Source of the DNA: Gemmatimonadota bacterium
Lineage (GTDB): Bacteria; Gemmatimonadota; Gemmatimonadetes; Gemmatimonadales; GWC2-71-9
DNA length: 46,521 bases
Direction: 5' to 3'
Assembly (NCBI GenBank): GCA_003222055.1
Contig: QHUT01000072.1
Location: 1 to 46,521, forward strand
Below are positions 17,747 through 40,860 of the stretch, one piece after another. Made by a program: the position numbers and the translations under genes. The notes beneath the pieces were generated by a model, which saw only the letters and a list, made by a program, of their open reading frames with translations, made no database searches and was not told where the DNA came from. Numbering within the stretch: position 1 is the first letter of the stretch; every line of letters begins with the position of its first letter.

Positions 17747-17824
17747 ATTGCGGATTGTGGATTGTGGATTGCGGATTCGAAGGGCGGGTGTCCAATCCGC
17801 AATCCGCAATCCGCAATCCGCAAT
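17747..17824. repeat. Palindromic element A1 (31-16-31), between ispA and dxs
   Basis: Two 31-base arms (17747-17777 and 17794-17824) are inverted copies with two mismatches. Each is four 8-base units of type ATTGCGGA. The 16-base centre is CGAAGGGCGGGTGTCC. Degenerate pieces of the unit continue to about 17840. The element occupies most of the 114-base ispA-dxs gap and ends 17 bases before the TTG start of dxs, so in RNA it would form a long hairpin in front of dxs. Confidence 0.95.
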
Positions 17825-28957: not shown

Positions 28958-29646
28958 CAGGAGGGAATTGCGGATTGTGGATTGCGGATTGCGGATTCGA
29001 AGGGTGGGCGTCCAATCCGCAATCCGAAATCCGCAGTCCGCAATTTGTGCCGCGGCAGATCATGCAGCTGGCGCAAGTCGTCCAGCGTCTCCAAACCCCG
29101 CTCCGCCGCGCGGCCCAGCAGGGCGCGCAGGATGTACGCCGTCGCGAGCGCGTCGCCGAAGGCGCGATGGCGAGCCGGGTTCTCGACGCCGAAGAACGCC
29201 GCAACCTGCTCCAGGCGGCGATGGCGCAGTTCGGGCACGAGGCGGCGGGTGAGCCGGATGGTGCACAGGGGCGGACCCTGGGGCGCCGGGACTCCCGCCG
29301 CCGCGCATTCCCCCGCGAGAAAGCCCCAGTCGAAGCGGGCGTTGTGGGCAACGAAGATCGCGTGTGCGAGCACGCGGGCGAGACCGGGAGCCACGTCCGC
29401 GAAGCGGGGGCGTCCGGCGACCAGCTGGTCGGTGATCCCGGTCAGGCGCACGACGGCGGCGGGCACCGACACGCCCGGATCGAGCAGCGTGTCGTAGGCC
29501 AGGTGGACCGTCCCACCCTCGAGCATCGCGACCGCGACTTCGAGAACGCGCCCGCCGGGCGGTGCGCTCCCGGTCGTCTCGAGGTCCACGACGGCGAAGC
29601 GGCAGAGCTCGAGCGGGACGGGGGGCGGCACCGCGCTAGAGGTCAT
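28957..29646 (-). CDS. DEDDh 3'-5' exonuclease (DnaQ/PolC epsilon-like)
   Basis: 229 residues. Exo I VVDLETTG (D21, E23), Exo II VAHNARFDWGFL and Exo III HRAFGDALAT give the four acidic residues and the His. A stand-alone proofreading-type nuclease for DNA or RNA ends. The domain ends near residue 200 (LHDLPRHKL); the remaining about 27 residues are translated palindromic repeat A2, so the native stop has been lost or moved. It overlaps the end of the arginine deiminase gene by 11 bases. Confidence 0.92.
   Translation of the reverse strand: MTSSAVPPPVPLELCRFAVVDLETTGSAPPGGRVLEVAVAMLEGGTVHLAYDTLLDPGVSVPAAVVRLTGITDQLVAGRPRFADVAPGLARVLAHAIFVAHNARFDWGFLAGECAAAGVPAPQGPPLCTIRLTRRLVPELRHRRLEQVAAFFGVENPARHRAFGDALATAYILRALLGRAAERGLETLDDLRQLHDLPRHKLRTADFGLRIGRPPFESAIRNPQSAIPS
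28967..29044. repeat. Palindromic element A2 (31-16-31), in the 3' end of the exonuclease gene
   Basis: Same layout as A1: arms 28967-28997 and 29014-29044, centre CGAAGGGTGGGCGTCC (14 of 16 bases as in A1). It encodes the last part of the DEDDh exonuclease (about RTADFGLRI...SAIRNPQSAI) and stops 10 bases before the start of the MBL-fold gene. Confidence 0.95.
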
Positions 29647-30868: not shown

Positions 30869-30911
30869 GGGCGGAATCTAAGCGAGCATCCTCCGCATTC
30901 CACATTGTATT

Positions 30912-31533: not shown

Positions 31534-31551
31534 TTGTGAACAATTTCACAA
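31534..31551 (-). promoter_or_regulatory. Rex operator
   Basis: TTGTGAA-CAAT-TTCACAA is a perfect 18-base match to the Rex-box pattern. It ends one base before the rex ATG and its TGA is the stop codon of rsmA. Bound Rex would block transcription into its own gene. Confidence 0.92.
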
Positions 31552-32373
31552 TCGCGCACTCCAACGCAAGAGCCGCGCGAACTCGGCAGCCCCGAGTGTC
31601 TCGGGCCGCGCCGCCGCCGCGAGCCCCAGCTCGCGCAGCCCCGCGCCCACCACCGCCGCCGACCGCCCCGTCGCCGCCATGACCACGTTGCGCAGCTGCT
31701 TGCGCCGCCGCGTGAAGCACGCGGTGACGAAGCCGCGAAATGCCGCGAGCTCCTCGGGCGCCACGAGGGGCTGCGGGAGCGGCGTGAGCCGCAGCAAGGC
31801 GCTGTCCACACGCGGTCGCGGGTGGAACGCACCGGCCCGCACCGTCGACAGGCGCTCCACACGACACACCGCTTGCACACCGACCGACAGGGCGCCGTAC
31901 GTCTTCGATCCCGGCGCCGCCGCGACGCGCGCGGCGACCTCGGCCTGGACGAGAAACACGATGCGCTCGGGCAGCGGCGGCGTGAGGGCTTTGTCGATCA
32001 GGGGAGAGGTGATGGCGTAGGGGATGTTGCCGACGATCTTCCATTGCGGATTGTGGATTGCGGATTGCGGATTTGCAGAGTGGATCTCGAGAAGCGTGTG
32101 CCAATCCAGACGCAGCGCGTCCCCGTCTAAGACCGCTACATTGTCCAATCCGCAATCCGCAATCCGCAATCCGCAATCTCTGGCGAGCCGTCGATCCTTC
32201 TCCACCGCTACCACCTTGGCGACCCGCGGCGCAAGCGCCGCCGTGAGCGTTCCAGTCCCCGCCCCGATCTCGATCACCACGTCGTCGGGCGCGGGGTCGA
32301 GCGCGTCGACGATCTTCTCGAGAATGGTGCGATCGGTGAGGAAGTGCTGGCCGAGCCGTTTGTCGGGAATCAC
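31546..32373 (-). CDS. rsmA: 16S rRNA dimethyladenosine transferase (KsgA)
   Basis: Dimethylates two adenines in helix 45 of 16S rRNA. 275 residues. Motif I VIEIGAGTGTLTAAL (about 33-47), VAVEKDRRLA, the GDAL motif and NIPYAITSPL (motif IV, about 116-125) are intact. Start GTG 32373 overlaps the stop of the SpoIIE-type gene by four bases. Odd: residues about 66-76 (DCGLRIADCGL) and about 101-110 (NPQSAIHNPQ) are translations of two palindromic-repeat arms flanking the native NVAVLDGDALRLDW. Both lie in surface-loop positions of the Rossmann fold. Its stop lies within the Rex operator. Confidence 0.93.
   Translation of the reverse strand: MIPDKRLGQHFLTDRTILEKIVDALDPAPDDVVIEIGAGTGTLTAALAPRVAKVVAVEKDRRLARDCGLRIADCGLDNVAVLDGDALRLDWHTLLEIHSANPQSAIHNPQWKIVGNIPYAITSPLIDKALTPPLPERIVFLVQAEVAARVAAAPGSKTYGALSVGVQAVCRVERLSTVRAGAFHPRPRVDSALLRLTPLPQPLVAPEELAAFRGFVTACFTRRRKQLRNVVMAATGRSAAVVGAGLRELGLAAAARPETLGAAEFARLLRWSARL
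32043..32177. repeat. Palindromic element A3, split, in frame inside rsmA
   Basis: Arms 32043-32073 and 32147-32177, 31 bases each; the left arm is identical to that of A2. The 73-base spacer encodes the conserved rsmA GDAL segment instead of the short 16-base centre. Both arms keep the reading frame. Confidence 0.93.
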
Positions 32374-36601: not shown

Positions 36602-36625
36602 GCCCGACCCTTCCACCTCTCTCCA

Positions 36626-36709
36626 ATTGCGGATTGCGGATTGTGGATTGCGGATTGTACATGGAGGGTCGTGCGCCCAATCCGCAATCCGCAATCCGCA
36701 ATCCGCAAT
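36626..36709. repeat. Palindromic element A4, between recJ and rsmD
   Basis: Arms 36626-36656 and 36679-36709 (31 bases each, one mismatch) with a 22-base centre GTACATGGAGGGTCGTGCGCCC. It fills most of the recJ-rsmD gap, ending 5 bases past the recJ stop and beginning 25 bases before rsmD. Confidence 0.93.
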
Positions 36710-36714
36710 TTGTC

Positions 36715-39122: not shown

Positions 39123-40860
39123 CTCTCCTCCTCGCAGCGATCTTGTAACGCGGGTAACGTTTGCGGAGCTCGTCGAACACGCGCCGCTTCTCCGCAATCA
39201 GGGACGCCTGGCGCTCGGGACTCTCGAACGGCAGCTGGTCGTCGAGCTGCTCCAGCTGCCGCTCCAGTCGCCGCGCTTCCATCCAGGTCACGGCCAACTC
39301 ATACATTTCGTTGGGATCGCGCCCGCTCAGGCCTTCCTCCCTGAGCTGCTCGTAGGCGCGCGCGGACGTGTCGTCCAGGGCGAGCACCGCGTCGTCGGCC
39401 ACGGCTTCGAACACGGCCCGGTACGGGAGGAACTCGAGCTCTTCCGCGTCGACGGCCTCGACCACGCGCGCCCGCCACGCATCGCCCTCGAGCATGAGCA
39501 ACAAGAGGGCCTTCTCGGCGCTGGCGGGCAACGCGGGAAACGGGACACGGGAAACGGAAGACGTGGGCGTCCTACTCGTTTCCCGTTTCTCGTTTCCCGT
39601 TTCCCGTTCCAAGACGTCCTTCCGCACGCCCGCCGCCTCCGCCGCACGCGAGATGTACAGCTCCCGCGTAATCGGATCTTTGGCCGCCCGGATCGTGGGG
39701 AGCAGCCGGTCGAGCGCCCGGCGCCGTCCCGGGAGGCTCGAGAAGAAGGCCTTGCGGTCGAGGATCTGGATCTTTCGCTCCAGCGGGTCGACCGCGTCCT
39801 TGAGGATGGCTTCGAGCCCCGGCGCGCCGCGTTGCTGGACCAGGGTGTCCGGGTCCTCTCCGGCGGGAAGCGTGGCCACGCTCACGCGCAGGCCCTGCCG
39901 CAGCAACTCGTCGCCGGCGCGGAACGTCGCGCGCAGTCCGGCGTCGTCCGAGTCATACAGCAGGGTGACGTGGGGCGTGTGACGCGCGAGCAGCTGCGCC
40001 TGATCCGACGTGAGACCGGTGCCGAGCGGGGCCACGACTTCCTCGATTCCGGCGAGCGACAGGCGCAGCACGTCGAAATACCCTTCCACCAGGATGGCGC
40101 GCTCCGCCTTGCGCATCGCGTGCTTCGCGACGTGCAGGTTGTAGAGCAGCTTCCCCTTATGGAACACAGGGGAATCGGGCGAGTTGAGGTATTTCGGCTC
40201 TCCTTCACCGAGGATGCGGCCCCCGAACGCCACCACGCGTGCGCGCAAATCGTGGATCGGAAACAGCAGCCGCCCCCGGAAGCGGGGCAGCAGAGTGCCG
40301 TCCTCTCGTTTAACGAGCAGGCCGGCCTCGAGCAACACCTCGTCACGCACGCCCAACCCTTTCATTGCGTCGAGAAACGCCTTGCCCCTCGGCGCGTAGC
40401 CCAGGGCCAGCGGCAGGACGACGTCCAGCTCCACGCGTCGGGACGCGAGGTAATCGCGGGCGACCTGCGCTTCGGGGCTCTCGCGCAGCTGACGCGCGAA
40501 CCAATCGGCGGCGGCTGCCACGGCCCCGTACAGCGGCTCACGCGGGTCGGGGCCGGTGGGTCCCCGCTCCGGGATGGCGATCCCGACGCGGCGCGCGACC
40601 TCGCGCACCGCCGTGGGATAGTCCATGCCGAGCCGCTTCATGAAGAAGGTGAAGACGTCGCCGCCCTCGTGGCACACGAAGCAGTAGTACATCCCTTTCT
40701 TCGGGATGACGGTGAAATTGCGGTGCGTGCCGCCGTGAAACGGGCAGGGAGCGCGGAAGTCGGCTCCCGTGCGTTTGAGCTCCACGTGCTCGCCGATGAT
40801 CCCCACGATGTCCGCCGCTTCCCGGACCTGCTCGATCACGTCGTCGGGAATGAGACTCAC
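39106..40860 (-). CDS. dnaG: DNA primase
   Basis: Makes RNA primers at the replication fork. 584 residues. Zinc finger C39, H42, C60, C63 (CPFHGGTHRNF, YYCFVCHEGGD), RNAP core, Toprim ILVEGYFDVLRL with LYDSDDAGLRAT, and a C-terminal helicase-binding part (about 445-584). Between core and C-terminal part, residues about 417-444 (RETGNEKRETSRTPTSS...) are translated repeat element C. It is at a linker, so function is likely kept. ATG overlaps the mutS2 stop by four bases. Confidence 0.95.
   Translation of the reverse strand: MSLIPDDVIEQVREAADIVGIIGEHVELKRTGADFRAPCPFHGGTHRNFTVIPKKGMYYCFVCHEGGDVFTFFMKRLGMDYPTAVREVARRVGIAIPERGPTGPDPREPLYGAVAAAADWFARQLRESPEAQVARDYLASRRVELDVVLPLALGYAPRGKAFLDAMKGLGVRDEVLLEAGLLVKREDGTLLPRFRGRLLFPIHDLRARVVAFGGRILGEGEPKYLNSPDSPVFHKGKLLYNLHVAKHAMRKAERAILVEGYFDVLRLSLAGIEEVVAPLGTGLTSDQAQLLARHTPHVTLLYDSDDAGLRATFRAGDELLRQGLRVSVATLPAGEDPDTLVQQRGAPGLEAILKDAVDPLERKIQILDRKAFFSSLPGRRRALDRLLPTIRAAKDPITRELYISRAAEAAGVRKDVLERETGNEKRETSRTPTSSVSRVPFPALPASAEKALLLLMLEGDAWRARVVEAVDAEELEFLPYRAVFEAVADDAVLALDDTSARAYEQLREEGLSGRDPNEMYELAVTWMEARRLERQLEQLDDQLPFESPERQASLIAEKRRVFDELRKRYPRYKIAARRRGAPGT
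39531..39610. repeat. Palindromic element C, in frame inside dnaG
   Basis: Arms made of a 7-base unit (CGGGAAA left, TTTCCCG right) flank a centre with GTGGGCGTCC, the same ten bases as in the centre of A2. It encodes the linker of DnaG. Confidence 0.8.

Follow-up and report, generated by a model that had tools for sequence, protein, structure and literature searches.

The palindromic elements of Rickettsia each consist of one contiguous inserted palindrome. PMC6649704 and the work that it cites report that protein genes can tolerate palindromic DNA in frame and that the arms of these elements lose identity over time. Inverted repeats also occur in functional genes of nematomorph mitochondria, where they have been gained and lost with the arms kept matching, and both arms of these coding palindromes, which reach 284 bp, encode conserved parts of the protein (Mikhailov et al. 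2019, PMC6649704). The G-rich heptameric repeats of Xanthomonas and Nostoc belong to one unit class (GGGAATC, GGGGAYT), are preferentially four units long and are under-represented in coding regions; each Xanthomonas genome contains 70–75 convergent inverted pairs, and the intergenic places that these occupy are shared by two species, with the sequence varying (Rehm et al. 2015, PMC4692102). In the 23S rRNA intervening sequences of Coxiella and Leptospira, an ORF for the intervening-sequence protein (IVP/S23) lies within complementary arms, forming a 28-bp stem in Coxiella (PMC4990558). REP and REPIN sequences are dispersed short inverted pairs, some of which lie within genes (PMC3733652).

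The window analysed here, a stretch of 46,521 nt from a Gemmatimonadota bacterium, belongs to the 3.69-Mb assembly G000 and includes an rsmA gene that contains two inverted heptad arrays:

31546..32373, minus strand: rsmA (ksgA), 16S rRNA dimethyladenosine transferase; GTG start at 32373 likely
32147..32177, minus strand: arm 1, 5' in the gene, 31 nt, AATCCGCAATCCGCAATCCGCAATCCGCAAT; (GGATTGC)4-type, the G-rich strand being the coding strand
32074..32146, minus strand: native spacer, 73 nt, encoding LDNVAVLDGDALRLDWHTLLEIHSA, GDAL motif included
32043..32073, minus strand: arm 2, 3' in the gene, 31 nt, ATTGCGGATTGTGGATTGCGGATTGCGGATT; reverse complement of arm 1 with one mismatch

The product was identified as RsmA/KsgA using TIGR00755 (230.6 bits versus a cut-off of 171). 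The sequence-only reading of this DNA, namely that full-length arms in opposite orientation lie in frame within rsmA around native GDAL code, was borne out, as the arms are complementary at 30 of 31 positions (97 %) and the minus-strand reading frame stays open through both of them. Arm 1 encodes approximately DCGLRIADCGL and arm 2 encodes NPQSAIHNPQ, corresponding to residues 75–85 and 110–120, respectively, of the protein P0001 (66–76 and about 101–111 when counted from the GTG at 32373). A structure prediction, also proposed in that reading, was obtained as an AlphaFold model built from 17 sequences (pLDDT 86.6); arm 1 corresponds to the end of helix 70–82 and the next turn, and arm 2 to a low-confidence loop (pLDDT <50 for residues 111–116) ahead of strand 120–125. 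The predicted RNA fold of the stretch containing the arms has a z-score of -8.9. Neither the translated repeat peptide nor heptamers in Gemmatimonadetes could be found in the literature searched. Unlike the Rickettsia elements, the rsmA arms are split around native code and stay matched. The spacer belongs to the native gene and each arm is an addition compared with homologues, so a contiguous palindrome inserted as a single piece fails to explain the pair, in agreement with what had been argued from the sequence. The arms also differ from those of the nematomorph palindromes, as they encode dispensable repeat peptides of approximately 10 residues and their unit belongs to a dispersed family, and from the 23S rRNA intervening sequences, as they hold native code and no IVP gene.

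The rsmA genes of relatives, all from metagenome assemblies or genomes of unknown source, were aligned and the same residues encoded by unrelated codons were sought, but the relatives instead have different arms, which likewise match one another. Self-complementary arms were found at these two RsmA loops in 16 of the 54 Gemmatimonadota genes compared, with units GGATTGC, GGAACGC, GGAATGC/GGAGTGC, GGTGTCA, GGTGCGC and GAAGAGT, the last forming a perfect 32-bp pair of irregular arms (32/32) in L051. An assembly artefact is unlikely because the site recurs, with the ORF kept, in many separately assembled genomes. When a tree of RsmA was computed without the arm columns, the arm trait clustered (5 changes versus 14 with shuffled labels) and at least 10 changes of unit were counted; G000 and G009 are sisters (99 % support), yet have different units. 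Complementarity of an arm to its own partner averages 21.6, versus 10.1 across species (permutation p=5e-5). The arm regions have median lengths of 57 and 60 nt where arms are present versus 42 and 31.5 nt in armless relatives, a difference in medians of approximately 15 nt at the first loop and 30 nt at the second, and the residues encoded there follow the unit and are shortened where relatives have no arms. Decayed arm remnants are present in L018 (G003), and L054 and L057 have empty sites inside the arm-bearing clade. The rsmA genes of L046 and L023 (G005) are without approximately 34 codons, in frame, that cover arm 1 and the spacer; this is either a real deletion between the arms or an assembly collapse.

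The rsmA arms belong to a large family in G000. A three-unit pattern, with no more than 1 mismatch allowed, gave 115+102=217 matches in the genome versus 0 for the reversed control, and 44 heptad hairpins were found in a 443-kb sample versus 0 in a shuffled control of about half that size; these counts rule out a chance match for the rsmA arms. The arms are tandem heptads of about four units. Of the 44 sampled hairpins, 31 have the unit GGATTGC and the remainder GGGAAAC, GGAATGC, GGGACGA and others. GGATTGC arms are 27–35 nt long (mostly 31–33 nt) with a period-7 identity of about 0.9. Approximately 17 of 85 arms in G000 are single, nearly all of the others have an inverted partner no more than 450 nt away, and neighbouring arms in direct orientation are essentially absent among the 85. 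Polarity is convergent with the G-rich arm first (41:0 in G000 and 68:4 in relatives). Loops in G000 are typically 16 nt, others being 20–60 nt and some >100 nt. Four further hairpins lie in the window:

17747..17824, no strand assigned: GGATTGC hairpin, 16-nt loop, directly upstream of a dxs-like ORF
28966..29045, no strand assigned: GGATTGC hairpin, 16-nt loop, upstream of an MBL-fold-like ORF
36625..36710, no strand assigned: GGATTGC hairpin, 20-nt loop, upstream of an rsmD-like ORF
39534..39606, no strand assigned: GGGAAAC hairpin (second unit class), 25-nt loop, inside a long ORF continuing from dnaG-like sequence

The dominant unit varies by genome. Exact 19-mers of GGATTGC/GGAACGC/GGARTGC number 50/4/27 in G000, 4/58/1 in G009 and 1/2/115 in G006, and the unit at rsmA is the dominant one in seven of the nine genomes with countable arms. 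Contigs from a viral collection (L195–L217) contain GGATTGC arms, about 32 nt long and in many cases unpaired, and further heptad units (GGGAACC, GGCTGAA, GAATGCA and GGTAGCC). Many GGAATGC and GGAACGC hairpins with loops of 35–50 nt (L040–L052, L139–L158) share an inner core of approximately GAGGTCG...CGACCTC that lengthens the palindrome.

Pairs with the anatomy seen in rsmA, in frame and enclosing native code, were also found in hflX, rsmB, rarA and cca in the sampled part of G000, and pairs of this anatomy occur at dozens of further sites. In hflX, rarA and cca of relatives, self-matching pairs with other units are present at the same loops in most species with a recognisable stem. The GGG-class pairs of the hflX/rarA/cca region are uniform in unit within a genome (GGGAAAC in G001, GGGATGC in G007). 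At one intergenic site (site A), families and loops (16, 8, 38, 40 and 50 nt) vary by species, and one species has just 5 nt. The sites in G009 and G007 that are empty or nearly so are too diverged for a target-site duplication at the ends to be called.

In the sister species G009, contig C83 is syntenic with the window and 92–93 % identical in DNA sequence. The hairpin sites at 17747, 28966, 32043 and 36625 are filled in both sisters, with GGATTGC in G000 and GGAACGC in G009. Over rsmA codons 46–120 approximately, the sisters are only 57–63 % identical, versus 84–99 % for most of the remainder, and G009 is 82–89 % identical to G001 over the same codons. Informative sites, counted without the arm columns, group G000 with G009 versus G009 with G001 in the ratio 3 to 21 inside this tract and 39 to 4 outside it (Fisher p=1.5e-10 with G028 as outgroup; 2.7e-6, 2e-8, 1e-3 and 0.04 with four other outgroups). 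Judged from these sites, the swapped tract has the phylogeny of another species, and a donor can be assigned firmly for rsmA only. Pure hypermutation near hairpins is disfavoured, as the site pattern of another species in the rsmA tract favours import. Identity also drops at hflX and rarA, where the sister units differ; there is no drop at cca, where the arm peptides of the sisters agree (out-of-frame columns for G007 and G001 were left out of this comparison).

Across 42 kb of sister alignment, identity falls from about 94 % to 60–70 %, mostly no more than 150 nt from hairpins. When the alignment was divided into 100-nt windows, low identity or failure to align was recorded in 27 of 74 lying <150 nt from a hairpin, none of 81 at 150–500 nt and 12 of 267 at >500 nt. 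These windows show a local hotspot at the hairpins, and the local drop taken together with the phylogeny of the rsmA tract indicates that arm, spacer and near flank are replaced together. Beside the hairpin at 28966, approximately 0.5 kb (29046–29627 of the window) is absent from the orthologous site in the sister species. A remnant half arm of GGAATGC type lies at 30885–30905 of the window; the sister species carries a complete GGAACGC hairpin at that place, and the half arm is a trace of loss and unit change.

On balance, we lean towards the reading that convergent heptad pairs are kept in place, with block recombination at the hairpin renewing them. The rsmA arms would be one occupied site of a genome-wide family with about four units, 31–32 nt per arm and the G-rich arm first. 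With respect to the first origin, we infer that an ancestor of this Gemmatimonadota lineage gained the pair at two tolerant places in RsmA (a helix end and a surface loop), one on each side of native code, without breaking the frame, and that the site was retained afterwards while its content was renewed. Renewal would involve recombination with alleles from other lineages whose arms have another unit, in which the arm-spacer-arm stretch and tens of nucleotides of flank are swapped in one piece. Because this stretch would be replaced as one block, both arms would always change together, and they would stay matched mainly because both travel in that block, possibly helped by some template switching that copies one arm to the other. 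The likely hotspot is the hairpin itself, which may be extruded, cut by a nuclease that acts on hairpins (such as SbcCD) and repaired from a homologue, the cutting step being suggested by general knowledge of palindrome processing. However, a genome-wide switch of the dominant unit at many sister sites is a heavy demand on imports alone, hinting that some process within the genome homogenises the units, and the intergenic loops also change in length and sequence, which is more like re-insertion than allelic exchange.

Rewriting in place is rather unlikely. A changed unit would spread along an arm by slippage and be copied to the partner by hairpin template switching, the spacer remaining unchanged. 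It has been proposed that template switching maintains hairpins and that repeats in coding palindromes undergo conversion (PMC8794818, PMC6649704), and some irregular arms match perfectly, such as those in L051. Heptad deviations common to both arms at the paired position number 76 versus 34 expected from shuffled units, with the choice of register uncontrolled and favouring shared deviations, but a further 267 are confined to one arm. Moreover, sisters with different units differ in the spacer too, that of rsmA having a foreign phylogeny, and the fixed polarity is unexpected from fold-back copying alone.

A trans-acting writer, such as an IVP protein or another enzyme, that copies one heptad template to many sites would account for a single unit dominating each genome and for the dominant unit differing among genomes, even between sister species, though we consider its involvement improbable. 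Genes for IVP (PF05635, the four-helix-bundle 23S rRNA intervening-sequence protein) number 5–11 in nine of ten genomes of the window's genus and two in the tenth, an incomplete assembly. A strong inverted repeat spans the IVP gene at 26 of 29 testable loci, versus 10 of 1500 random intervals; in L145, for example, an IVP ORF (TIGR02436) is enclosed by arms. These genes resemble the 23S rRNA intervening sequences in lying between matching arms, as seen from the gene and its flanks. Their arms vary copy by copy and about half have a period of 7. Beside IVP genes in L159–L188, some arms have a period of 8 or 9 nt and others are long (57–75 nt) and aperiodic. The number of IVP genes tracks the pattern counts (Spearman 0.70, or 0.42 without the window's genus, with kinship not corrected for). 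A search for Y1/RAYT transposases found four in G000 and none in the hairpin-rich genomes G001, G006 and G007, which argues against RAYT-driven REPs and is in keeping with a writer of another kind. Between rarA and cca, an IVP element occurs in G000, G001, G006 and G024, and its unit differs in each of the four; it is absent from G009 and G007, yet the arms in the neighbouring genes persist there. In addition, neither a template nor an enzyme for such a writer was identified, and recombination accounts for the rsmA swap without one.

Independent insertion of complete elements at preferred sites, with two separate events in neighbouring loops in the case of genes, is very improbable, as the arms in rsmA, hflX and rarA match in unit at the same loop pair in several species and direct-orientation neighbours are essentially lacking, even though lone arms occur and the families and loops at site A, down to 5 nt in one case, differ by species. 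Two events hitting adjacent rsmA loops had been put forward from the sequence, and this suggestion did not hold up, as the pair is inherited across genera, its arms change together and the swap between the sisters involves arms and spacer as a block. The companion suggestion, that one arm is the mobile or copied unit, fared better in part. Lone arms exist, not only in G000 but in large numbers in unrelated contigs, and so a single arm may have been the original unit; at rsmA, by contrast, the pair is inherited and changes jointly.

Returning to pairs kept in place and renewed by block recombination, the arrangement of the IVP genes suggests that the IVP elements are autonomous relatives of the heptad pairs. 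The IVP/S23 genes are the best candidates for both the autonomous form and a trans-acting factor, any role for IVP being putative. A tentative and somewhat doubtful extension is that IVP proteins belong to a class of hairpin elements, mobile or self-maintaining, with variable matching arms renewed in trans, and that pairs of this kind colonise genes around native segments, making these exchangeable between species.

The Gemmatimonadota pairs resemble the Xanthomonas and Nostoc heptamers in being tandem heptads of about four units that form convergent pairs at stable places with variable sequence. They differ in having many unit classes, in enclosing native housekeeping code, in block replacement and in the association with IVP. 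The unit also differs, as the runs of at least three G that characterise GGGAATC/GGGGAYT are not present in the dominant GGATTGC of G000, which has runs of two, GGG being confined to a minority class. REP/REPIN units, in turn, are not heptad arrays. A description of pairs that enclose native code and have unrelated units at conserved sites, or of a link to IVP, was not found in the open-access literature, which is not proof of novelty. The best reading is that the pairs are a new variant of convergent heptameric repeats.

Housekeeping genes in these bacteria, thus, carry long hairpins at fixed places, with a sequence that is free to change while the arms match, and the blocks replaced between species, which are sharply local, are marked by the heptad hairpins. 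The poorly understood genes for the IVP/S23 four-helix bundle are placed in a genomic context other than rRNA, and the means by which bacteria maintain matching inverted repeats become testable. If the proposed link holds, arm pairs associated with IVP would turn the native gene segments that they enclose into cassettes exchangeable between species.
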